Assembly: GCA_030447525.1 (NCBI GenBank)
Contig: JAUJOR010000016.1
Location: forward strand, 1 to 64,000
Length of the DNA: 64,000 nucleotides
Source: Chloroflexota bacterium
GTDB taxonomy: Bacteria > Chloroflexota > UBA11872 > UBA12225
Direction of reading: 5' to 3'
Shown: piece after piece, positions 51,091 to 63,895 of the stretch
How positions within the stretch are numbered: position 1 is the stretch's first letter
Layout: the number at the start of each line of letters is the position of its first letter
The notes under the pieces: generated by a model
The model's database searches: none
What the model saw: the letters and a program-made list of their open reading frames with translations, nothing else
What the model was told of the DNA's origin: nothing
Made by a program: the position numbers and the translations under genes

Positions 51091-51119
51091 TTGCTCTATA
51101 GGTTAGATGTCGATATACT
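51091..51119 (+). promoter_or_regulatory. Sigma-70-type promoter of the sugar ABC/DUF5696 operon
   Basis: TTGCTC (51091-51096) and TATACT (51114-51119) with a 17-bp spacer. The predicted start point falls at about 51126, directly at the palindrome. The leader would be about 140 bases. Confidence 0.6.
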
Positions 51120-51126
51120 GGCCCCA

Positions 51127-51146
51127 GGCACGCCAATTGGCGTGCC
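51127..51146. promoter_or_regulatory. Perfect 20-bp palindrome, likely operator
   Basis: ggcacgccaattggcgtgcc equals its own reverse complement and begins 7 bases after the -10. Its place at the start point fits a repressor site controlling the operon. A weak hairpin terminator is an alternative, as ctttgt follows. Confidence 0.6.
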
Positions 51147-51267
51147 CTTTGTACAGGGCATGTGGTGACCGGCCCTAGGGCCGGCTAGGGCCGGCAGGGA
51201 GATCGCCGGCGGAGTAGCCGGTGTGGCGCGCAAAGGCTGCAACGACCGCTGTGTCAGGAGACAGTGC

Positions 51268-54200
51268 ATGAGCTGGATGACCACTCCACATTTGCCCGGC
51301 GTCCCGCGCCACCAGACTCCCCGCCCGACGGGCTGGGCCTGCAGGAGGCGCGCCCTACGTTGGTCACAGCAGGCGATGGCCGCGCTGCTGGTCGCCGGAA
51401 TGCTCCTCCCTGCCTTTCCCCTCCCGGCGGCGGCCGGATCGCTCGATCAGGCGCCGGTGGGCGGCGCCGGGGCCGCCGGTGGGGCGCCGGCGGCCGGCAT
51501 AGGGGTAGGGGCCGCCGGGAGCGCGGCAGCTCCCACCAGCGCGGGGGCGGCCGGGGCGCAGCCGGCCCCCGTACAGCCGGCCCCCGTACAGCAGGTCACC
51601 GCGCAGCAGGCGCAGGGCGACCGGCAGCAAAGGCCGATAGAGGAGCTCACCCCCGAGGATCTGTTCGGCCAGCCCATCTACGCCGACGTCAAGGCCGAAT
51701 GGGACAAGCAGTTCAAGCCGGTCAGCGCCGGCGTGGAGGTGCGGATCCCGGCCGCCGACTACAGCGCCGCCGGCGGGAATGAGGGTCTGCAAGTAGTAGA
51801 CAACTTCCAGGGCAAGGCCGGGCGGACGCTGCTGTGGACGATCGACGACGGCTGGGTGGAGTGGGATGTCACCGTTCCCGAGACCGGGCTCTACGAGATC
51901 ACGGTGGACTACTACCCCATCCCCGGCAAGCGCGCCTCGGTGCAGCGCGACCTCTTGATCGATGGGGAGCTGCCCTTCCGGGAAGCGAAGCGGGTCGTCT
52001 TCCAGCGTGTCTGGAAGGACGCTTACTGGCCCCCGAAGCAAGACAATCAGGGGCAGGACATCCGTCCACCTCAGGTAGAGGCCCCGCAGTGGGAAACCAA
52101 GACCATCGAGGACGCGGATGGGCGCTATGACGCCCCCTTCCAGTTCGCCTTTACTGCCGGGGCGCACAAGCTGCGCCTGCAGACGGTGCGGGAGACCGTC
52201 GCACTGCACACCATCACCCTCCACACCCCGCGGGTAATCCCCACCTACCAGGAGCGCCTGGCGGAGTGGCGGGCCAAGGGGTACAAGGAAGTCACCGGCA
52301 ACAAGATCTCCAGGGTCGAGGCCGAGAACATCTACCTCAAGGCCGACCCCACCATCCGCGGCGAGGTCAACTTCGACGCCCTGGCCTCCCCTAACGCCAA
52401 TGGGGTGTTCCGCCTGAACTCGTTTGGTTGGTGGCGCTGGCGCCTGCCGGGCCAATGGGCGCGCTGGAAAGTCACCGTCCCGGAGGACGGCCTGTATCAG
52501 ATCAGCATGGACGTCTGGCAGGGCTGGGCCGGGCGCCGGCCCCGAATTCGCACCCTGCGCATCGATGGCGAGGTGCCCTTCCGGGAGATGCGCAACATCC
52601 TGTTTCGCAGCGACCGTCTGTGGCGCCTGGAGACAATGCGCCAGGACCAGCTGCCCGAAGGAGAGCCCTATCTCTTCTATCTCAGCAAGGGCGAACACAT
52701 CCTGCAGATGGAAGTCACCCTGGGGTTCATGTCTGAGACGCAGCGGGTGCTGGATCAGACGCTCGGCGAGATGAGCGCCATGAACCGGGAAATGCTCATG
52801 ATCACGGGGGCCAACCCGGACCGGAACATGGATTGGGACCTGCACGAGAAGATCCCCACCCTTGTCCCGCGCCTGCGGTCGATCGTCGAGCGCCTAGAGA
52901 CGCAGGCGACGCGCATGGAGGAGATTGGCAAGTCGCGCAACGACGCCTCTGCCGCCTTCCGCGTCGTGGTCGACCAGGTGCAACGAATGGTCAATCAGCC
53001 GGCGGACATCCATCGCCTGCTAGACGACTTCACTCGCAGCCAGGGCATCCTGGCGGCGCAGATCGTCGCTCTCCAGAACCATCCGCTGGCGGTGGAGTGG
53101 TTCGCCGTGCACTCCCCTGACGCCAAGCTCCCGCGGGTGCAGGCCAACGTGGTGGAGCAGACCATAGCGTCCACCAGGACGTTCATCATGTCCTTCTTCC
53201 GTGACTACACCGGCCTGGGGAGCAGCTACGGCAAGAACGAGAAGCCCCTGGAAGTGTGGGTCGGTCGGGGCTCCGAATGGGGCCAGATCATGAAGGATAT
53301 GGCGGAGGATGACTTCACACCGGCCACGGGCATCAAGGTTAACCTCCACGTCATCCCGCCGGCCAACCTCGGAGAGGGCGCCGGCTCCGTGCTCCTGCTG
53401 GCTGCAACGGCCGGGGAAGCCCCCGACGTGGCCGTCGGCGTCCCTTCGCAGCTCCCGGTGGACTTCGCCGTACGCAAGGGACTGGTCAACCTGAACGAGT
53501 TCCCGGACTACGCCCAGGTGGCGGAGCGCTTCCGGCCGGGCGCCCTGGTGCCCTTCCGCTACAAGGTCCCGTTCACGAATCAGGTGGGGGACTGGGCGCT
53601 GCCGGAGACGCAGGACTTCGCCATGCTCTTCTATCGCACGGATGTGCTGACCGAGCTGGATATCAAGCCCCCGGACACGTGGGAGGACTTGTATGACGCC
53701 CTGCTCAAGCTGCAGCAAAATGGCCTGGACTTCTACTACCCGCCGCCGACCGGCGTGGCGGTGACCGAGGGGGCCGTGGGGTTCACCCCCTTCCTGTTCC
53801 AGAACGGGGGCGACTACTACACCTGTGACGCTGAGGGGTCGTGCAAGTCGTCGCTGAACACTCCCGAGGCCCTGGCCGGCTTCCAGGAGTGGACGGAGCT
53901 CTATAGCAATTACAAGATCCCCCGCGAGGCTAACTTCTTTACCCGCATGCGCACGGGTGAGCAGCCCATCGGCGTCTCAAACTACTTTGTGTACATCCAG
54001 CTCTCCACGGCGGCCCCGGAGCTGACTGGGCGCTGGGAAATGCGCCCCATGCCGGGGCACCGCTGCGGGTCAGTCAACAACACCACGGGGATGATGATCC
54101 CCTGCCCCCCGGGTGAGCAGCCCGGCACCGTCATCCGCACCAGCGGGGGCACCGGCCAGGCGGTGGTCATCTTTAACCAGAGCACGCAGAAAGACGCCTC

Positions 54201-54573
54201 GTGGGAGTTTCTCAAGTGGTGGACGTCCAAGGACGCCCAGCAGCGCTTCGGCGGTGAGCTGGAGGCGCTGATCGGGGTTGAGGCGCGCTGGAACACGGCC
54301 AACCTGGAAGCCCTGCAGGCCCTGCCGTGGCCCCGCCGCGATATCGCCTCCATCTTGGAACAGTGGCGCTGGTTCCGGGAGCCCCCGGTGGTCTTGGGAG
54401 GCTACTTCACCGGCCGTCACGTCCTGAACGCCTGGAACCGCGTGGTGCTGCAGGGGGTCAATCCCCGCGAGTCCTTGGAGGATGCCATCTTCGACATCAA
54501 CAAGGAGCTGGCCAAGAAGCAGGAGGAGTTCGGGATCAAGGTTGATCCCTCTATGTACCGGCGCGGAGGCTGA
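51268..54573 (+). CDS. Large extracellular solute-binding protein with two carbohydrate-binding-like modules
   Basis: 1101 residues; ATG 51268 has AGGAG seven bases upstream. A long signal segment (hydrophobic core about 37-56, ending FPLPAAAGS, no lipobox Cys) is followed by an Ala/Gly/Pro/Gln linker to about 120. Two beta-rich modules come next (about 155-317 and 345-484). Both share a VTVPE-x-GLY core and a later DGE-x-PFRE motif, and the second starts RVEAENIYL, typical of CBM6/35-like domains. A helical region (about 490-645) leads to a family 1 sugar-binding domain (about 657-1100: APDVAVGVPSQLPVDFA, LFYRTDVLTELDIKPPDTWE, WEFLKWWTSKDAQQRFGG). It should capture a glycan outside the cell for the permeases encoded next. 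Family 1 binding proteins usually have 400-450 residues. Confidence 0.9.
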   Translation: MSWMTTPHLPGVPRHQTPRPTGWACRRRALRWSQQAMAALLVAGMLLPAFPLPAAAGSLDQAPVGGAGAAGGAPAAGIGVGAAGSAAAPTSAGAAGAQPAPVQPAPVQQVTAQQAQGDRQQRPIEELTPEDLFGQPIYADVKAEWDKQFKPVSAGVEVRIPAADYSAAGGNEGLQVVDNFQGKAGRTLLWTIDDGWVEWDVTVPETGLYEITVDYYPIPGKRASVQRDLLIDGELPFREAKRVVFQRVWKDAYWPPKQDNQGQDIRPPQVEAPQWETKTIEDADGRYDAPFQFAFTAGAHKLRLQTVRETVALHTITLHTPRVIPTYQERLAEWRAKGYKEVTGNKISRVEAENIYLKADPTIRGEVNFDALASPNANGVFRLNSFGWWRWRLPGQWARWKVTVPEDGLYQISMDVWQGWAGRRPRIRTLRIDGEVPFREMRNILFRSDRLWRLETMRQDQLPEGEPYLFYLSKGEHILQMEVTLGFMSETQRVLDQTLGEMSAMNREMLMITGANPDRNMDWDLHEKIPTLVPRLRSIVERLETQATRMEEIGKSRNDASAAFRVVVDQVQRMVNQPADIHRLLDDFTRSQGILAAQIVALQNHPLAVEWFAVHSPDAKLPRVQANVVEQTIASTRTFIMSFFRDYTGLGSSYGKNEKPLEVWVGRGSEWGQIMKDMAEDDFTPATGIKVNLHVIPPANLGEGAGSVLLLAATAGEAPDVAVGVPSQLPVDFAVRKGLVNLNEFPDYAQVAERFRPGALVPFRYKVPFTNQVGDWALPETQDFAMLFYRTDVLTELDIKPPDTWEDLYDALLKLQQNGLDFYYPPPTGVAVTEGAVGFTPFLFQNGGDYYTCDAEGSCKSSLNTPEALAGFQEWTELYSNYKIPREANFFTRMRTGEQPIGVSNYFVYIQLSTAAPELTGRWEMRPMPGHRCGSVNNTTGMMIPCPPGEQPGTVIRTSGGTGQAVVIFNQSTQKDASWEFLKWWTSKDAQQRFGGELEALIGVEARWNTANLEALQALPWPRRDIASILEQWRWFREPPVVLGGYFTGRHVLNAWNRVVLQGVNPRESLEDAIFDINKELAKKQEEFGIKVDPSMYRRGG

Positions 54574-54744
54574 GGCCAGCCGTGCCTGTGGGGCGGGTCA
54601 GCCGGCGGGTGTGTCCCCCGTCGCTCTGGCCCGCTCCCTACTCGGTCATGACCCTGTAGTGGTGAACTCAGCAGGCGACACCGGGAAGTAGGGCCAGTGT
54701 CGCCGCTGCCGGCGACGGCAAGCGCATAAGGAGGATGTGAACAA

Positions 54745-55701
54745 ATGGCTACCCGACCAGAAGTATTTGTCCCAGCAAGGGCAATACCGGCTCCCCACGC
54801 GCGCCGCTCTCCGCTGAGCGCCTTCTGGTACCGATGGGGTGTCTACTACCTCTTCATGGCCCCCTTCATGACCATGTTCACCGTCTTCATCATCGCCCCC
54901 GTGCTGGTGGCCATCTACCTATCATTCACCTACTTCAACGTCCTGGAGGCACCGCGCTGGATCGGGTGGAGCAACTACAAGCTCTTGTTTCTTGAGGACG
55001 ACGTCTTTATCACGGCCATCGCCAATACCCTGACATTTGCCGTGATCACTGGTCCGGTCGGCTTCTTTATCTCCTTTTTCTTTGCCTGGTTGATCAACCC
55101 GCTGAAGGCCAAGACCGTCCTGGCTTTGTGTTTCTACGCGCCCTCTATCGTGGGCGGCATCGCCATGAGCGTGGTATGGAAGATCGTGTTCTCCGGCGAC
55201 CGCTATGGCTACTTGAACAACTATCTGCTCAATATCGGGGCCATCGACGAGCCGTACCAGTTTCTCTCCGAGCAGGCGTCGATCATGCCGGTGATCATGT
55301 TCGTTTCCTTGTGGATGGGCATGGGCACCGGGTTCCTGGTGTTCCTCGCCGGCCTGCAGACGGTGAATACCGACCTGTATGAGGCAGGCAAAGTGGACGG
55401 CATCTCCAATCCACTACAGGAGGTGTGGTACATCACCCTGCCGTCGATGAAGCCCCAGCTCCTGTTCGGCTCGGTCATGGCCGTTGTCGCGGGGTTCTCG
55501 GTATTTGAGGTGGCTACGGCGCTGGCCGGCCTACCTAGCCCCTTGTATGCCGGGCACACCATTGTGTCTCACCTGTATGACTACGCCTTTATTCGGTTTG
55601 AGATGGGCTATGCGGCCACTGTGGCTGTGATTCTGTTTCTCTGGACCTTCGGCCTGGGCCGGCTCCTGTTCCGGATCTTCTCGTCCAAGAACGAGTACTA
55701 G
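54745..55701 (+). CDS. Sugar ABC transporter permease, MalF type (pair 1)
   Basis: 318 residues, six main helices. The EAA loop that docks the ATPase reads YEAGKVDGISNPLQEVWYIT (about 212). It is similar to LplB/YtcP/UgpA-type permeases. AAGGAGGATG lies before the ATG. It should form the channel with the next gene's product. No ATPase gene is in the operon; a shared MsiK-like ATPase would be needed. Confidence 0.92.
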   Translation: MATRPEVFVPARAIPAPHARRSPLSAFWYRWGVYYLFMAPFMTMFTVFIIAPVLVAIYLSFTYFNVLEAPRWIGWSNYKLLFLEDDVFITAIANTLTFAVITGPVGFFISFFFAWLINPLKAKTVLALCFYAPSIVGGIAMSVVWKIVFSGDRYGYLNNYLLNIGAIDEPYQFLSEQASIMPVIMFVSLWMGMGTGFLVFLAGLQTVNTDLYEAGKVDGISNPLQEVWYITLPSMKPQLLFGSVMAVVAGFSVFEVATALAGLPSPLYAGHTIVSHLYDYAFIRFEMGYAATVAVILFLWTFGLGRLLFRIFSSKNEY

Positions 55702-55818
55702 CTGGATGCGTGCTATGTTGGGGTTTGACGTGACTATCCCGGTGTGCGGTTCGACAGAAGGATCGGTGATGACGTCTGCGGGCTTGCGTCCTGGCGTGCA
55801 TCCTAAGGAGGGTTTGTA

Positions 55819-56724
55819 ATGGCAGTGCTGGCCCGCCCCCGCTCGGTGCCGCGCGTCCCGGTGCTCTTCGGGAGGCGTATCCGGATACAGTGGCCTTCGG
55901 CACAGTATTTCTTGTTGGTGCCGCTGGCGGTGTTCGCCGTGTTGCCCATCGTGTACGTCATATCCACGGCGTTTAAGCCCCTGGAAGAGCTGCTGATATT
56001 TCCGCCACCCTTCTTCGTCCGTCGGCCCACGATGGACAACTTCCAGGACTTGCTGCTAGCGACGAACGCCCTGGCCGTGCCATTCTCGCGCTACCTGTTC
56101 AACAGCGTCTTCGTCACGCTGACCACGGTGCTCCTACAAGTATTGATCTGCTCGATGTGCGCCTACCCACTGTCTAAGGCGCGGGGGCTGCCGGGCGCGA
56201 ACATCGTCTTCGCCATGATTATCGCCGCCTTGATGTTTGCCCCCCAGGTGACCCGCATCCCGCAGTACCTGGTGGTGCAGAAGCTGGGCATGATCGATAC
56301 CTATTGGGCCCTGATCGTCCCGGCCCTGGCGTACTCGTACGGACTGTTCATGATGAAGCAGTTCATGGATAACTCGGTAGATATGGCGCTGATCGAGGCG
56401 GCGCGGATTGATGGGGCGAACGAGTGGACGATCTTCTGGCGGGTGGTGATGCCAAACGTCGCCCCGGCGTGGAACACGCTGCTCATCTTCGGCTTTATCC
56501 AGCAATGGAACGACTCGTTCAGCCCGCTGGTATTCACGCGCAGCGAGGCGATGAAGACGGTCTCGGTGGCCATGATCTCCCTTACCAACGGGCCGGCGAC
56601 GGTGGCCCGCCTGGGGGCGCAGTCGGCGGCGGCATTCCTGATGACCGCCCCGACCATCATCGTCTTCTTGCTGCGGCAGGCGAAGGTGATCCAGACCATG
56701 GCCCACTCCGGGATCAAGGCCTAG
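55819..56724 (+). CDS. Carbohydrate ABC transporter permease, MalG type (pair 1)
   Basis: 301 residues, six helices, EAA loop IEAARIDGANEWTIFWRVVM (about 192), and the typical N-terminal VISTAFKPLEELL. AAGGAGG lies 5-7 bases before the ATG. It is the partner of the permease 117 bases upstream. Confidence 0.92.
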   Translation: MAVLARPRSVPRVPVLFGRRIRIQWPSAQYFLLVPLAVFAVLPIVYVISTAFKPLEELLIFPPPFFVRRPTMDNFQDLLLATNALAVPFSRYLFNSVFVTLTTVLLQVLICSMCAYPLSKARGLPGANIVFAMIIAALMFAPQVTRIPQYLVVQKLGMIDTYWALIVPALAYSYGLFMMKQFMDNSVDMALIEAARIDGANEWTIFWRVVMPNVAPAWNTLLIFGFIQQWNDSFSPLVFTRSEAMKTVSVAMISLTNGPATVARLGAQSAAAFLMTAPTIIVFLLRQAKVIQTMAHSGIKA

Positions 56725-56877
56725 GCGGGCGCCGCTGCATCAGTCGGCAGTGAGCGGCCGTCCGTGGCACGGGGCCTGGCATGGCCCGGCGGGGTGAGGT
56801 GGTGAGGGATCTAGCAGGAATGGCTGGCCAGGCAGGCAGGCGGATTAGGTAGGGACAACGTGTTGAAGGAGGCGATG

Positions 56878-58380
56878 ATGGCGGTCGACACAGCGCGGTT
56901 CGGCCGGCGGGGCGTCGGTCGTGACCCGAGAGGCTGGCTGCGCGCCGGTGCGGCTGCGCTGCTCTCCCTTAGCTTGATGGTGACCACGGTAGCCACGGCC
57001 AGCGCTGATCGGGAGTATTCCTGGACGCTGGACAAGGACGGGCAGCAGCTGCGGTCTCCGATGCCATACATCTACGACTTCGAGGTCGATGGGATGTACA
57101 AGCCTTCGGGGACATTCAAGAACCCGGCCGATATCTTCATCGACAAGGAGTACAACGTCTGGATCGCCGACACCGGGAACAACCGCCTGCTGAAGTTCGA
57201 CGAGCGGGGGAACTATCTACGGGAGTTCGGTACGGCAGAAGATGAAGGGAAGCTGAACGCCCCGGAAGGGATCTACGTCACCGAGCGCGGTGACATCTGG
57301 GTGGCCGACCGTGGTAACGGGCGGATCGTGCAGTACGCCCCGGACGGGACGTTCTTAAAAGCCCTGGGGAAGCCCCGCTCCCGGCTGCTGGAAGAGGACC
57401 AGGTCTACCAGCCGAACAAGCTGGTGATCGACCGACGGGGCTATATCTACGTCCTGAACGGCGGGGGAGATTACCGCGGGATCTTCCTGCTGGACTCCGA
57501 GGGTGAGTTCCGCGGCTTCTTTGGCGCCAACCGGCTCAGCTTCAACCTGGCGCGCCTGCTCGTGCGGTCATTCACCACGGACGCGCAGAAGAAGCAGATC
57601 TCCAAGGTGCTGCCGACGCACCACGCCAATCTCTTCGTCGATCCGCGGGGCTTCATCTACACCGTTTCGCCCCTGTCCCAGCAAGATCAGATCAAGAAGC
57701 TGAACTCAGTTGGGAACAACGTCTACACCACGAGCGCGAAGGCCTTTGGCGAGCGCGAGCGACGCGGGACGCAGATCGTCAACCCGCAGTTTGTGGACGT
57801 GACGGTAGACGAGCAGGGAATTGTCTCCGCCCTGGACTTCAACAGCGGGCGGATCTACCAGTATGATCAGTCGGCGAATCTCCTGGCCATCTTCGGCGGC
57901 CGGGGAGCCCAGCGGGGCCGGTTCGAGCTCCCGCAGAGCCTGGCCGTAGGGCGCGAAGGACGTATCTTCGTCCTGGACGCAAACCGCAATAACATCCAGA
58001 TTTTCCGGCCCACGGAGTTTGCCAATCTCCTGCACGACGGGAGCAAGCTCTACTTCGACGGCAAGTACAACGAGGCGGCCACGATCTGGGAGGAAGTCCT
58101 GCGGCGTAACAGCTTCTACGAGCTGGCCCATACGGGCCTGGGCAAGTCGTTCTTCAAGCGCGGTGACTACGTCACGGCGATGGAGGAATACAAGATCGCG
58201 CGGAACAAGGACGGTTACTCACAGGCATTCGGTGAGTGGCGCCACGACTTCCTGCGTGAGAACTTCGGCTGGCTGTTGCCGATGGTGATCTTTGCCATCT
58301 GGGTATTAACCACGGTGATCTCCCGTACGATGAAGCGCGTGATGAGCATGAAGCTTGAGACGGAGGGGGGACCAGCATGA
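56878..58380 (+). CDS. NHL-repeat protein with TPR-like segment and C-terminal membrane anchor
   Basis: 500 residues from ATG 56878, five bases after AAGGAGG. Signal peptide 1-43 (GAAALLSLSLMVTTVATASA). An NHL-type beta-propeller spans about 70-385, with repeats such as NPADIFIDKEYNVWIADTGN, APEGIYVTERGDIWVADRGN and PQSLAVGREGRIFVLDANRN. A TPR-like helical part follows (YFDGKYNEAATIWEEVLRRN, about 395-450). One membrane helix (WLLPMVIFAIWVLTTVIS, about 464-482) and a short basic tail end the protein. It would display the propeller outside the membrane. The stop overlaps the YIP1 start (ATGA), so the two are coupled and may form a complex. No catalytic residues are evident; a lyase or lactonase role for the propeller is possible but unsupported. 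Confidence 0.85.
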   Translation: MAVDTARFGRRGVGRDPRGWLRAGAAALLSLSLMVTTVATASADREYSWTLDKDGQQLRSPMPYIYDFEVDGMYKPSGTFKNPADIFIDKEYNVWIADTGNNRLLKFDERGNYLREFGTAEDEGKLNAPEGIYVTERGDIWVADRGNGRIVQYAPDGTFLKALGKPRSRLLEEDQVYQPNKLVIDRRGYIYVLNGGGDYRGIFLLDSEGEFRGFFGANRLSFNLARLLVRSFTTDAQKKQISKVLPTHHANLFVDPRGFIYTVSPLSQQDQIKKLNSVGNNVYTTSAKAFGERERRGTQIVNPQFVDVTVDEQGIVSALDFNSGRIYQYDQSANLLAIFGGRGAQRGRFELPQSLAVGREGRIFVLDANRNNIQIFRPTEFANLLHDGSKLYFDGKYNEAATIWEEVLRRNSFYELAHTGLGKSFFKRGDYVTAMEEYKIARNKDGYSQAFGEWRHDFLRENFGWLLPMVIFAIWVLTTVISRTMKRVMSMKLETEGGPA

Positions 58381-59210
58381 CCGCCCGCTCGATTCCGGCC
58401 GTTGCTACTCCGGCGGTACCGCGCCGACGTGTAGCGCGCCCTGGTGCGGGACGCGCCGGGACGGCGGCGCGCTGGCGTGCCGCCGCCGGGCGTGTGCGGT
58501 GGTACCTGACCAAGTGGTTCCGCCAGATGCTGTTCGTCCTGACGCATCCGACTGAGGCGTTCTGGGAGCTGAAGCGCACGGGAGACTGGGCGTCCGTTGC
58601 CTTCCTGGTGTTCCTGGCGGTCATGGCGCGCATGTTGCTCATGAGCTTCATGAGCTTCCACTACATCTTCCAAGGCGTGGAGCGGACGAAGTGGAATCTC
58701 GAACGCGTCATGCAGCAGTTCACCGCCACGATGACGCTGGGCATGACCAACTTCATCTACAACGGTAACCCAGAGGACACCTCGGTCATCCAGGAGGCCC
58801 TGCGCATCTTGATCCCCTTCGTGACCTGGTGCCTGGCGCACTACGCCATCGCCATGATCTTTTACGGTGAAGGGGGCCTGCGCGACATTATGGTGTCGGC
58901 CGCCTTTTCCCTTTCCCCTTACATTTTCTTCTCCTGGCCGGCGTCTCTGATCCTGACCAACGTGACCACCCTGGCGGAGCGTTCGCTGTACTTTAGTATC
59001 AGTTGGCTGGTCAACTTGTGGGTCTTCTACTTATTCTTGACCCATATCCGCATCATTCACGACTTTACATTCAAACGCACGGTGGCAACGTACATCATCT
59101 CGCTGATCACGGTAATCATCATCTGGTCGCTGGTGGCTCTGGTGTATGCCCTGACCAGCAACACGTACGAGTTCTTCTACGAGCTGTTCTACGAGTTGAC
59201 CACGCGCTAG
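58377..59210 (+). CDS. YIP1-family membrane protein
   Basis: 277 residues. After a basic, Arg/Ala-rich 45-residue tail, LTHPTEAFWELKRTGDWASV is the typical opening of bacterial YIP1-domain proteins, followed by about five helices (AFLVFLAVMARMLLMSF, ILIPFVTWCLAHYAIAM, FSLSPYIFFSWPASLIL, LVNLWVFYLFLTHI, VATYIISLITVIIIWSLVAL). The role of the bacterial family is not established. Coupling to the NHL protein suggests a joint membrane assembly. Confidence 0.85.
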   Translation: MTARSIPAVATPAVPRRRVARPGAGRAGTAARWRAAAGRVRWYLTKWFRQMLFVLTHPTEAFWELKRTGDWASVAFLVFLAVMARMLLMSFMSFHYIFQGVERTKWNLERVMQQFTATMTLGMTNFIYNGNPEDTSVIQEALRILIPFVTWCLAHYAIAMIFYGEGGLRDIMVSAAFSLSPYIFFSWPASLILTNVTTLAERSLYFSISWLVNLWVFYLFLTHIRIIHDFTFKRTVATYIISLITVIIIWSLVALVYALTSNTYEFFYELFYELTTR

Positions 59211-59286
59211 GCTGCCGGGTGCTGGGAAAACGCACCGTCGGCTATGAGTTGGGCATAGGCCCCGGAAGATGCAAGGAGTCACGTCC

Positions 59287-61647
59287 ATGAGGCGTCGGTT
59301 GTTGTCGCTGGCGGCGGGTGCCGCCCTGCTCTTCCCGGTAGTGCTGGCCCCCGCCGGGGCCGGCGCAGCCGGGGCGCGGCTTGTCCCGGCGGCCGGCCCG
59401 GCCGCGCCGGCCCCGGCTGCGGCGGGAGCGACGCTCCAGTCTGTCGTGTCCGCGCCGAACCCGCAGGTGCCCGGGGAGTACGAGCCGGTGGCGGAAACGC
59501 CCGGCCTGCGCATGTATGTGAATCGCGCGGACTCGAAGTTGATCGTCGAAGATCGACGCAACGGGAAGTTGTGGTCGAGCAATCCATTGCGTCCGCTGAG
59601 TGACCAGAAGACAATCCTGGACGATGCAGTTTTCCAGCTCAACTACACCAACGCCCGGCGCCAGATGACGAATCTGGCCAGTTCGGCGTCGGAGAGGCCG
59701 GAGCTGTCGTTCCAGAACATCCAGAACGGCGTTCGTGTCATCTATGACATTCAGAAGCTCAAGCTGAAGATCACGGCGGACTACTCCTTGAAGGAGGAGC
59801 CGCGGGTCGACGGGCAGGGGACGGTGGGCTACCTGGAGGTGACCATTCCGGAAGGTGGGGTGCAGGAAGGGGGCGACTGCTCGTCGCCGACGAGCACCTC
59901 CTGCTTCATGGTGGTGACGTTGGAGCTCTTGCCCCTGTTCGGCGCCGCGCCGATAGGGAGTGAAGGCTACCTGATGGTCCCTGACGAGTCCGGGGCTATT
60001 GTCACCTTCAAGCCCGAGTACCCTCAATACCGGCAGCGCTACTCGGCCACCATCTACGGGGCCGACGCCGCCGCGCAGGCCTTTCAGACCGGCTCAGGCA
60101 GCACCTTCCGTAACGATCGGCCGCGTATGCCTCTCTGGGGCCTGAAGGAGGGGGACGCCGCCTATGCCGGGATTGTGACCAAGGGGCAGTTCCAGGCCAA
60201 CATCAACGGCTACCTGGCCGGATACATCACGAACGCCAATCGCGCTTCGACGGAGTTCATCTTCCGGCGTCAGGCCTCCATCCCGCGCCGCCGGACGCTG
60301 TTCGTCAACCGTATCGAGGACAACCTGATACCCGGCGACCGACAGGTGCGCTACGTCCTGCTGAACGGGGAGGACGCCAACTACGCCGGGATGGCCAAGG
60401 CGTACCGCGACTACCTCATGAAGTCGCGGGGGATGAAGAAGCTCCCGGATCAGCCGGCACGGCCATTGATCGACCTCTACATGGGCGCCCTGCGTCGGTC
60501 GTCTTTCCGCGATGACTTCCTGCCTATGACCACGTTCGATCAAGGCATCTCCATCATGCAGTCCTTCCTGGATCGGGGGGTCAAGGACTTTGACGTTCAG
60601 CTGATCGGCTGGAATGACGGGGGGGAGCGGGGCTACTGGCCCCGTCGTTACCCCGCAGAGGAGGAGCTCGGCGGCAACGCCGGGCTACGCCGGCTGACGG
60701 ATTTCGCCCACAAGAACGGCCTGCGCGTCTACCTCCAGGACAATTACTTGTACGGCTACACGATCTCTTCGGGGGGGATCTTCGGCCAGATCCCCATCGT
60801 GCGTAACATCTGGCCCAACTGGAGCTACGGCTTCAATACCCGCTTCGACACGATGCGCGGGGTGAACAAGCTCCCGGTGTTCTCAGGTAGCCGCACCGGT
60901 GGGAGCACCAATATCGGCTTCTATCTCATCAACCCGATCGTTTCCCGCCAGAGCTACGTCGAGCGGGACTACCCGAAGCACAAGTCGCTCGGCGCGGACG
61001 GCGTCAGTCTGTTGCTGATGGGCACCATCATCGCCTCGGACACCAATGAGCGCTACCCGCTCAGCCGTGAGGGTGTGGCCGAGGAATGGATGAAGATGGC
61101 GGATCGTTCTCGGGAGCTGCTGGGCGGGGCTATCGTCACCGGATCAAACGACTACGTCCTGGGGCGCACAGATCGGGTGTATGACGCCCCGGTGGACAGC
61201 ACGGATGCCTTCGGTGATGTGGCGGTGCCGGTGTACCACATCGCCACTCAGGGCCTGGTCGTACGCAACACGTTCGCCGTGAATCTCCGCAACGACCCCA
61301 AGACCGAGATCCTGCGACAGATCGAGTGGGGGATGCAGCCAGTGTACATGCTGACTAGCCAGCCCACGGCCGACCTTATCCGTACCGGCTTCAATCGCCT
61401 CTACAGCGGCGAGGCTTCGGAATGGCTCGAGCCCGCGGCCAACGAATACAAGCAGATGCGTGATGAGTTCGGGTACCTCAGCGGGAAGTTCATCACCAAC
61501 CATGAGATCCTTGCCCCGCGCGTCAATCGCGTAACCTACGAAGACGGCTCACAGGTGACCGTGAACTACAACCCCGTGCCGTACGAAGGCCCCGGTGGAC
61601 GGGTCGATGCCTTTGGATACACCCTCCGCAAGGGCGGCGGTCGCTGA
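59287..61647 (+). CDS. Secreted DUF5696 protein, glycoside-hydrolase-like
   Basis: 786 residues; ATG 59287 is eight bases after AAGGAG. Signal peptide about 1-28. A beta-rich N-terminal part (about 60-330) resembles the supersandwich domain that precedes barrels in some glycosidases. From about 393 the sequence looks like a TIM barrel: PLIDLYMGALRR, QGISIMQSFLDRGVKDFDVQ, YPAEEELGGNAGLRRLTDFA, KNGLRVYLQDNYLYG, SLGADGVSLLLMGTI, then AIVTGSNDYVLGRTDRVYDA. A small beta C-terminus ends it. Acidic residues in DVQLIGWNDGG, LQDNY and IIASDTNE are candidate catalytic positions, not proven. The GH101/GH129-like fold is my inference. Secretion and the ABC context point to glycan processing outside the cell. 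Confidence 0.8.
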   Translation: MRRRLLSLAAGAALLFPVVLAPAGAGAAGARLVPAAGPAAPAPAAAGATLQSVVSAPNPQVPGEYEPVAETPGLRMYVNRADSKLIVEDRRNGKLWSSNPLRPLSDQKTILDDAVFQLNYTNARRQMTNLASSASERPELSFQNIQNGVRVIYDIQKLKLKITADYSLKEEPRVDGQGTVGYLEVTIPEGGVQEGGDCSSPTSTSCFMVVTLELLPLFGAAPIGSEGYLMVPDESGAIVTFKPEYPQYRQRYSATIYGADAAAQAFQTGSGSTFRNDRPRMPLWGLKEGDAAYAGIVTKGQFQANINGYLAGYITNANRASTEFIFRRQASIPRRRTLFVNRIEDNLIPGDRQVRYVLLNGEDANYAGMAKAYRDYLMKSRGMKKLPDQPARPLIDLYMGALRRSSFRDDFLPMTTFDQGISIMQSFLDRGVKDFDVQLIGWNDGGERGYWPRRYPAEEELGGNAGLRRLTDFAHKNGLRVYLQDNYLYGYTISSGGIFGQIPIVRNIWPNWSYGFNTRFDTMRGVNKLPVFSGSRTGGSTNIGFYLINPIVSRQSYVERDYPKHKSLGADGVSLLLMGTIIASDTNERYPLSREGVAEEWMKMADRSRELLGGAIVTGSNDYVLGRTDRVYDAPVDSTDAFGDVAVPVYHIATQGLVVRNTFAVNLRNDPKTEILRQIEWGMQPVYMLTSQPTADLIRTGFNRLYSGEASEWLEPAANEYKQMRDEFGYLSGKFITNHEILAPRVNRVTYEDGSQVTVNYNPVPYEGPGGRVDAFGYTLRKGGGR

Positions 61648-61680
61648 GCTCGGGATACTGCGAGGAGGACACATATAGTC

Positions 61681-62643
61681 ATGAAGATGCGCGTTACCCG
61701 CAAGGAACCGCAGCTTGCCGTGGCCGGCGCCGGCGTCGGGGATACGGCCGCGACGGCGCCGGTGCGGCGCCGTCGCCGGATGACACTGAGCGTCCAGCGG
61801 ACGCTCGAGGGATACTTCTTCGTCTCCCCCTGGGTGCTCGGCTTCATCGTCTTTCTGGCCTGGCCCTTGTTCCAGAGCTTCTTCCTGAGCTTTCACGAGC
61901 TCCAGGCCACCTCCCTGAGCGATCTGAAATTCCGGGGCATTGACAACTACAAAGAAGCATTCTTTATCGATGCCCGCTTCTTACCCCGGCTGAGGGACAC
62001 CCTGCAGCAGAATCTGCTCGACGTTCCGGTGATCATGATCTTCAGTCTTTTCAGCGCCATCCTGGCCAACCAGAAGATCAAGGGGGTGATGGGCTTCCGG
62101 GCCGTTTTCTTCCTGCCCCTGGTGATTGGCTCGGCCCAGGTGATCCAGCAGCTCTTCAGCCAGGGTGTGGGTGGCGCCGTCCTCAGCCGGGGAGTGAACG
62201 TTCAGGAGCTAGCCTTCCAGTACCTGGGACCGGACGCCGCATCCGGTGTCGAGCAGTTGCTCAACCGGCTACTGTTCGTGCTCTGGAAGACGGGCGTGCA
62301 GATGCTGATCTTTCTGGCCGGGTTGAATAGCGTCTCCCCAGTACTCTATGAGGCGGCGCGCGTTGATGGCGCCACCGACTGGGACCGGTTCTGGAAGGTA
62401 ACGCTGCCCCTCTTGTCACCGGTCATTCTCGTGAACCTCGTCTACACTATCGTCGACTCCTTCACGGACACGTTCAACCAGGTACTGCAGTACATCCAGC
62501 AGACGGCCTTTGCCGGGGGCTTCCGCCTTGGATACGCCGCCTCCCTTGGCTGGATCTACTTCGCCATCGTGTTCATCATCCTCGCCACCGTCGTGCGAGT
62601 CACAAACCGCTACGTCTTCTATGCCGGCGAACGGAACTCGTAG
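61681..62643 (+). CDS. Sugar ABC transporter permease, MalF type (pair 2)
   Basis: 320 residues. After a basic 35-residue N-terminus there are six helices; the EAA loop is YEAARVDGATDWDRFWKVTL (about 223). Sequence differs clearly from the pair 1 permease, so this is not a recent duplicate. GGAGGAC lies about 12 bases upstream; ATG 61687 is an alternative start. Confidence 0.92.
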   Translation: MKMRVTRKEPQLAVAGAGVGDTAATAPVRRRRRMTLSVQRTLEGYFFVSPWVLGFIVFLAWPLFQSFFLSFHELQATSLSDLKFRGIDNYKEAFFIDARFLPRLRDTLQQNLLDVPVIMIFSLFSAILANQKIKGVMGFRAVFFLPLVIGSAQVIQQLFSQGVGGAVLSRGVNVQELAFQYLGPDAASGVEQLLNRLLFVLWKTGVQMLIFLAGLNSVSPVLYEAARVDGATDWDRFWKVTLPLLSPVILVNLVYTIVDSFTDTFNQVLQYIQQTAFAGGFRLGYAASLGWIYFAIVFIILATVVRVTNRYVFYAGERNS

Positions 62644-62673
62644 GACCCCGCAGCGCATCTTGGAGGTAACGCT

Positions 62674-63615
62674 ATGGCAGTCGTTTCCCAACAGTGGGTC
62701 CAGCGTCGTCCGGTCTGGCTGCGGGACACCCAGGTGTTCCGCCGGCGCGCGGTTACGTTTATCCAGCGTGCCTTTACGTATATCGTGCTCATCGATATCG
62801 CCTTCGTCTTCCTCGTCCCGATCTTCTACATCCTGGCCACATCCCTCAAGACAGCCCAGGACTTGACTGATCCGACCATCGTCTGGATCCCCTCCGGGTT
62901 CTTCTGGATCAACTACCCCCTGGCCTTCCTGGCCATGAACTACCCTCGGTCCCTATCTAACAGCCTGTGGATCTCATTAGGTTCGGCCTTTGGGCAAACG
63001 GTCAGCTGCGCCTTCGTCGGCTATGGCTTCGCCCGGATTCGCTTTCCTGGGCGCGACCTACTCTTTGCCCTCGTCCTTTTCACCTTCCTCGTCCCACCAC
63101 AGACGATCATTGTCCCTTTGTTCATTCTGTACAAGAACCTGGGGTGGATCAACTCCTATAACCCGTTCATCGTCCCTAGCTTCTTCGGTCATGGTCTGAA
63201 GGGCGCCTTGTTCGTGGTCGTGTTCCGCCAGTTCTTCAAGACCCAGCCCTGGGAGCTCGAGGAAGCGGCCCGCATCGACGGGGCCTCCGCCTTCGCCACC
63301 TGGTGGCGCATCATGCTCCCCATGTCCACGGCGGCCATCGTCGTCGTCTTCCTCTTCAGCGTGGTGTGGCACTGGAACGACTTTTTCGAGCCTTTCATCT
63401 ACCTGAACCGCATGGAGCATTTCACCCTGCCCATGCGCCTCTCGGTGCTCTCCCCTTCATTGGATCAAGTGACCGGCGGACAAGCGGGTGACCTGTTCAA
63501 CGAGGCGCTGGTGATGGCCGCCGTCTTCCTGGTGATCCTTCCGCCCCTGGCGATCTACATGTTCACCCAGCGCTTCTTCGTGGAGTCGATCGACCGTACT
63601 GGCCTGGTGGAGTGA
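62674..63615 (+). CDS. Carbohydrate ABC transporter permease, MalG type (pair 2)
   Basis: 313 residues, six helices, EAA loop EEAARIDGASAFATWWRIML (about 197), and the MalG-like VPIFYILATSLKTAQDL. TTGGAGGTAACGCT precedes the ATG. It is the last gene of the operon; its second binding protein is not in the window. Confidence 0.92.
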   Translation: MAVVSQQWVQRRPVWLRDTQVFRRRAVTFIQRAFTYIVLIDIAFVFLVPIFYILATSLKTAQDLTDPTIVWIPSGFFWINYPLAFLAMNYPRSLSNSLWISLGSAFGQTVSCAFVGYGFARIRFPGRDLLFALVLFTFLVPPQTIIVPLFILYKNLGWINSYNPFIVPSFFGHGLKGALFVVVFRQFFKTQPWELEEAARIDGASAFATWWRIMLPMSTAAIVVVFLFSVVWHWNDFFEPFIYLNRMEHFTLPMRLSVLSPSLDQVTGGQAGDLFNEALVMAAVFLVILPPLAIYMFTQRFFVESIDRTGLVE

Positions 63616-63655: not shown

Positions 63656-63691
63656 ATCGACTTCTCAGAGATCCACCTCTGAGAAGTCGAT
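63656..63691 (+). terminator. 15-bp perfect hairpin after the ABC operon
   Basis: atcgacttctcagag (63656-63670) pairs exactly with 63677-63691 around a 6-base loop, 40 bases past the last stop. It is probably the operon terminator, although no T-run follows. Confidence 0.55.
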
Positions 63692-63725
63692 CATCAAGGC
63701 CCGCGCAGGGGCGCGATAGCAACTA

Positions 63726-63782
63726 ACAGGTGCGGCCGTCAGCCCCTCTGTGATGAGAGGAGGGGCCGCCGGCCGCACCTGT
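63726..63782. repeat. Nested inverted repeat (13-bp outer arms)
   Basis: acaggtgcggccg (63726-63738) and its exact complement (63770-63782) enclose a second stem, gcccct with aggggc. A strong nested hairpin. Confidence 0.7.
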
Positions 63783-63842
63783 GTGGCGATCGTAGAAGGG
63801 GAGAGGGACTTGACCTGGTCCAGGCCGTCCCGTGGCTCTGCG

Positions 63843-63895
63843 ATCGCCTGGCTGCAGGCGGGCGACGGGGCCTCTCCTGCCTGCAGCCAGGCGAT
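63843..63895. repeat. 17-bp perfect inverted repeat
   Basis: atcgcctggctgcaggc (63843-63859) and its complement at 63879-63895 with a 19-base spacer. Confidence 0.75.

Follow-up and report, generated by a model that had tools for sequence, protein, structure and literature searches.

A probable carbohydrate import cassette with NHL-Yip1 and DUF5696 proteins is conserved in Chloroflexota and Bacillota

The closest described relative of the operon analyzed here is the xylan degradation locus (XDL) of Caldicellulosiruptor/Anaerocellum bescii, with the gene order xloEFG-X-GH129-axoFGE-xynF-xynE-xynD-xyn10A-xynX-xynB (PMC8579813, Table 3). This locus is annotated with two CUT1 transporters, is assigned to XynR and AraR, and is induced on xylan (PMC8579813); the XynR operator, ACTAGTAAACGCTTACGATA, has been published (PMC12285236). 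In C. saccharolyticus, the XDL transporters Csac_2412 and Csac_2417-2419 go up with available xylan (PMC5658599). C. bescii is also genetically tractable, with a published deletion of msmK (PMC8579813).

We examined a related operon in a stretch of 64,000 nt (the whole of which we call the window) from a Chloroflexota genome placed near Thermoflexus-labelled MAGs. The cassette it carries is real and widely conserved, is probably a carbohydrate importer, and is partly known from Caldicellulosiruptor. Within the searches made, its novelty lies in the spread and strict order of the cassette, the fusion of its NHL and Yip1 proteins, its movement between phyla, and the loss of the GH129 catalytic pair in its DUF5696 protein.

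Operon layout and encoded transport proteins

Eight intact, consecutive open reading frames, all on the + strand, span positions 51268-63615 by ORF reading and Pfam. These genes and their putative signals are:

51091-51119, + strand: putative promoter TTGCTC-N17-TATACT (from sequence; 3/6 and 5/6 consensus matches)
51127-51146: perfect 20-bp palindrome GGCACGCCAATTGGCGTGCC, candidate operator, directly past the putative -10
51268-54573, + strand: secreted solute-binding protein (SBP), XloE-like (Pfam, CBM profile, AF2, Foldseek)
54745-55701, + strand: permease F1, XloF-like, MalF/UgpA type (Pfam below cut-off, NCBIfam, gene order)
55819-56724, + strand: permease G1, XloG-like, MalG/UgpE type (Pfam, NCBIfam, gene order)
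56860-58380, + strand: NHL beta-propeller and TPR protein (Pfam, hydropathy, start context)
58377-59210, + strand: Yip1-domain multi-spanning membrane protein (Pfam, hydropathy)
59269-61647, + strand: DUF5696, secreted GH129-fold protein (Pfam, AF2, Foldseek, profile, residue tests)
61681-62643, + strand: permease F2, AxoF-like (Pfam, NCBIfam, gene order)
62674-63615, + strand: permease G2, AxoG-like (Pfam, NCBIfam, gene order)
63656-63691, + strand: perfect hairpin with a 15-bp stem and no T-run (~40 nt past the last stop; z -5.1)

This layout agrees with a sequence-only reading of the same DNA, which had described eight same-strand genes here: the frames are intact and adjacent, and Pfam names each. 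That reading had also given the genes good ribosome sites and a single promoter. Shine-Dalgarno-like sequence is clear for seven of them and not for DUF5696, and the case for one promoter is weak: it consists of the TTGCTC/TATACT pair listed above, and a consensus scan reported nothing there. The SBP gene likely starts at ATG 51268, which AGGAGA precedes, rather than at GTG 51223, and the NHL gene at ATG 56875; the NHL and Yip1 genes overlap by 4 bp. A scan for terminator-like sites found none in the gaps between the eight genes, and the hairpin at 63656-63691 probably marks the end of the operon. This hairpin is the first of three consecutive strong inverted repeats, with arms of 15, 23 and 23 bp, that lie past the last gene (63656-63895).

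The palindrome, located at the likely transcription start, is a candidate local operator or 5′ hairpin. It was rejected as a regulon marker, being a single site in the genome (allowing up to three mismatches) and absent upstream of the relatives' operons, where we searched for it. The closest upstream neighbor genes have the opposite orientation, and the downstream neighbor, past the window, is an isoleucyl-tRNA-synthetase-like gene (read by eye). The flanking genes include no linked glycosidase, no regulator and no further SBP. PADLOC gave no defense-system link for the operon, and an Rfam search matched no RNA family.

The window SBP (SBP_bac_1 in Pfam, 4.5e-19) is composed of a signal segment, a low-complexity linker, two CBM35/CBM6-like modules, a helical region and a carbohydrate-type SBP domain. 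That this protein carries CBMs, as the sequence-only reading had claimed, is supported by an internal repeat and by family-profile matches. Toward the N-terminus, a module occurs twice, with 43% identity between the copies across 63 residues; no CBM module is above the Pfam cut-off, and a family profile of the region matches solved CBM35/CBM6 domains (E 4e-4 or better; 2e-9 to 5e-3 for the proteins that carry them). In the AF2 model (pLDDT 83.9), the top Foldseek matches of the C-terminal domain are oligosaccharide-binding SBPs.

All four permeases match BPD_transp_1 in Pfam, three of them above the curated cut-off and F1 just under it (23.4 vs 26.4 bits). EAA-type motifs are readable in 4/4, and the best NCBIfam matches are UgpA/UgpE/GlcU. 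The window contains what characterizes CUT1 systems, namely a MalF/MalG-type permease pair with an EAA loop and a carbohydrate-class SBP. MalFG-type permeases are importers, and we therefore set aside a role in export or capsule assembly. No ATPase gene is found among the eight, and two MalK-OB ATPases are encoded elsewhere in the genome. The same genome has 125 SBP_bac_1 matches against these two ATPases, in line with a shared ATPase; many of its sugar-binding proteins are apparently served by few ATPases.

Gene order and movement between phyla

DUF5696 exceeds its family cut-off in 29/301 Chloroflexota genomes and in 26/300 genomes of one Bacillota group. Annotating up to 20 kb around each match, using profiles that were built up starting from the eight window proteins, gave 59 operon-type loci from both phyla, with five distant stand-alone relatives left out. 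Because loci were picked via DUF5696 and include near relatives, the counts that follow are not independent; identity to the window DUF5696 reaches down to 21%. Members of each of the 59 loci are all on one strand. Wherever enough sequence is available, NHL immediately precedes DUF5696 (55/55 loci) and F2-G2 immediately follows it (53/53). The SBP-F1-G1 block is upstream in 33 of 40 loci; two loci, L121 and L122, have it downstream. When the window Yip1 was searched in the same 301 Chloroflexota genomes, the 26 positives were the 26 with strong DUF5696 matches, at the same loci. This neighborhood check bears out the proposal that DUF5696, Yip1 and NHL are co-located in other genomes.

Copy number and composition vary around this core. 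Some Clostridia genomes (L105, L106, L109, L113, L127) contain several NHL-Yip1/DUF5696/F2/G2 cassettes with no SBP-F1-G1 nearby, suggesting that the shorter core may work alone. A second SBP is found near 37 of the 59 loci, and not near almost all loci of the window clade, which mostly has one SBP and DUF5696 for two permease pairs.

The NHL-TPR protein (Pfam NHL at 2.4e-19, plus TPR) has an N-terminal signal segment and a C-terminal transmembrane segment by hydropathy, and its neighbor matches Yip1 at 4.9e-11. In 33 of 55 loci the two are a single fused protein of about 670-840 residues, which upholds their earlier description as a pair; the other 22 loci encode two proteins, and the DUF5696 tree requires six or more switches between the two states. 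The Caldicellulosiruptor copy has NHL, TPR and Yip1 on one chain (Pfam). Hydropathy gives the order signal segment, extracytoplasmic propeller/TPR, one transmembrane segment, positive stretch and multi-spanning Yip1, with membrane orientation assigned from charges. Literature searches returned no relevant paper on Yip1 together with NHL, no paper on DUF5696, and no experiment on either protein.

The exact XynR operator occurs once in locus L125, at 2205-2224 and 151 bp ahead of the SBP gene, which identifies this locus as the C. bescii XDL. From gene order, we infer that the XDL gene "X" encodes the fused NHL-Yip1 and that "GH129" is DUF5696.

On the DUF5696 tree, Chloroflexota appear in two places: the window clade adjoins Bacillota loci L119-L122, and a second Chloroflexota clade joins Bacillota loci L111/L045. 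A tree constrained to a single Chloroflexota clade is worse by 188 log-likelihood units (p-AU 0.00015), and this rejection indicates that the gene set moved between phyla. The sequence-only reading had supposed a conserved but undescribed system moved between phyla; conservation (59 loci) and movement (p-AU 1.5e-4) both stand, but a relative was already known in Caldicellulosiruptor.

Enzymes linked to the operon vary by locus and include GH43 (xylan type), GH26 with CBM35, GH42, GH3, an alginate lyase, and GH35 with PF10091. They are too varied for one fixed cargo across the family, which we ruled out. PF10091 proteins together with GH35 occur at L062:13352-19275, with equivalents in L058-L061, L066, L135, L136 and L111 and a LacI regulator in several of these. 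This distribution, over a Chloroflexota clade and one Bacillota genome, suggests that the PF10091/GH35 genes were transferred along with the operon. Beta-1,2-glucan was considered as cargo on the strength of these PF10091 proteins and of beta-1,2-glucooligosaccharide binders among the Foldseek matches of the SBP, and was not adopted, since PF10091 is restricted to L111 and one Chloroflexota clade and the SBP resembles binders of many sugars in fold.

DUF5696 and the GH129 catalytic sites

The window DUF5696 protein (Pfam, 4e-132) shares a whole-length fold and sequence kinship with GH129, represented by the alpha-N-acetylgalactosaminidase NagBb and the 3,6-anhydro-D-galactosidase DagB/ZgGH129. 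These two enzymes are the best PDB matches of its AF2 model (pLDDT 86, pTM 0.87) in Foldseek, with TM-scores of 0.71-0.74 on the target, and the DUF5696 family profile reaches ZgGH129/DagB and NagBb by sequence as well (E 2e-16 and 1e-14). Distant stand-alone relatives of DUF5696 match Pfam GH129 and GH101.

Activity of ZgGH129 needs both Asp486 and Glu517, and of the two NagBb catalytic residues this enzyme retains just the equivalent of Asp435 (PMC5698469). Through full-length alignment of one stand-alone relative to ZgGH129, we placed Asp486 and Glu517 at window positions 582 and 624. The window protein has Leu582 and Thr624 there, with no acid nearby, and C. bescii DUF5696 likewise lacks an acid at either site, whereas stand-alone relatives have D and E at the equivalent positions in 5/5 cases. 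Among 58 operon copies, position 582 is acidic in 12 (D in 10, E in 2), position 624 in 19, and both in a single copy. Residues kept by the operon copies instead include W448 (57/58), D591 (50/58), R600 (57/58), N627 (53/58) and Y629 (54/58). Elsewhere, a close relative of the window genome that also has the operon encodes a stand-alone GH129-like protein with an intact catalytic pair and two solute-binding proteins nearby (genome G004, L065:9038-11245).

The sequence-only reading had DUF5696 cutting a polymer. The fold fits such a role, but with Leu and Thr at the catalytic sites, and a pair that is rarely acidic in operon copies, the window protein is predicted from its sequence not to be a GH129 enzyme. 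Acids lie within two residues of both sites in 11/58 operon copies, so some of these proteins, including some Clostridia copies, may still be enzymes. Our best reading is that DUF5696 is, in most operon copies, a non-catalytic glycan-binding subunit with the GH129 fold.

Proposed mechanism and comparison with known systems

Taken together, we favor (probability about 0.6) a CUT1-type carbohydrate ABC import cassette made of two permease pairs, a CBM-bearing SBP, an NHL-Yip1 scaffold and a mostly non-catalytic DUF5696. The CBM modules would retain glycan at the cell surface, and NHL-Yip1 would dock the extracellular proteins beside the permeases. DUF5696 would bind glycan chains and hand them most likely to F2/G2, encoded right behind it, as suggested by the window clade mostly having one SBP and DUF5696 for its two permease pairs. 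F1/G1 and F2/G2 may then take oligosaccharides differing in size or decoration, with one MalK/MsmX-type ATPase, shared and encoded outside the operon, powering both pairs. Separate glycosidases, which depend on the locus and are unlinked in the window organism, would do the cutting. The scaffold role of NHL/Yip1 at the membrane and the presentation role of DUF5696 are suggested by gene order, fusion and fold.

We regard it as unlikely that DUF5696 is instead a working glycosidase whose catalytic residues have moved (for instance to Asp591 with Arg600 and Asn627) in a classic cut-and-import operon. Such an enzyme would have the fold of active GH129 members, within which the second catalytic residue does vary between NagBb and ZgGH129 (PMC5698469), and it could draw on the retained D591, R600, N627 and Y629 or, in the 11 copies noted above, on acids near both sites. 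Against this, the nucleophile site is acidic in few operon copies and is Leu in the window, compared with all five stand-alone relatives; D591 is 9 residues away from position 582 and, like N627 and Y629, is not consistently common to the stand-alone relatives; and the neighboring genes act on very different glycans, unlike what is expected around a substrate-specific enzyme.

The remaining alternatives concern the membrane proteins. Two independent sugar importers might share a promoter with unrelated membrane proteins, leaving NHL-Yip1 and DUF5696 outside uptake. Either permease pair could function alone, SBP-F1-G1 is not upstream in 7/40 loci, and many loci have a second SBP nearby; however, NHL(-Yip1)-DUF5696-F2-G2 is unbroken in every locus with enough sequence despite very divergent proteins, and Yip1 and strong DUF5696 matches fall in the same 26/301 genomes, making this arrangement improbable. 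We find it more improbable still that NHL-Yip1, rather than being a scaffold, senses glycan outside the cell and reports it inward, or remodels the envelope. Signalling would also suit its architecture, in which an extracytoplasmic beta-propeller is attached to a membrane domain with several spans, but Pfam detected no signalling or cytoplasmic output domain in NHL-Yip1, and regulation in C. bescii has been published as XynR and AraR (PMC8579813).

Building on the favored import cassette, we tentatively suggest a more specific possibility: DUF5696 may be a former GH129 enzyme that became a dedicated glycan-presenting subunit for F2/G2, acting much as a further binding protein and docked by a Yip1-anchored beta-propeller, in an unrecognized class of surface glycan-import machine reused across Bacillota and Chloroflexota with varying glycosidases. 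The operon links two uncharacterized families, DUF5696 and bacterial NHL-Yip1, to glycan import, and it leads to the prediction that, in biomass-degrading thermophiles, a GH129-annotated protein does no cutting. If the scaffold and presentation model is true, Bacillota and Chloroflexota have a Sus-like division of labor built on ABC permeases.

Like the Sus-like systems of Bacteroidota, the cassette would in outline combine surface glycan binding and import with locus-specific glycosidases. The two are non-homologous, however, as the cassette uses ABC permeases and has no TonB-dependent transporter or SusD; Pfam found no SusC/SusD pair among the eight window proteins. With CUT1 importers that use a shared MsmX/MsmK ATPase, it has in common MalFG-type permeases with EAA motifs, a carbohydrate SBP and the lack of an ATPase gene in the operon, to which the window operon adds a second permease pair, CBM modules on the SBP, and the invariant NHL-Yip1 and DUF5696. 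The C. bescii XDL has the same order, SBP-F-G-[NHL-Yip1]-DUF5696-F-G, and neither operon has an ATPase. Its proteins are homologous to those of the window (SBP 36% and DUF5696 24% identical), whereas the window operon has NHL and Yip1 as two genes and is without an AxoE-type second SBP, xylanases or a linked regulator.
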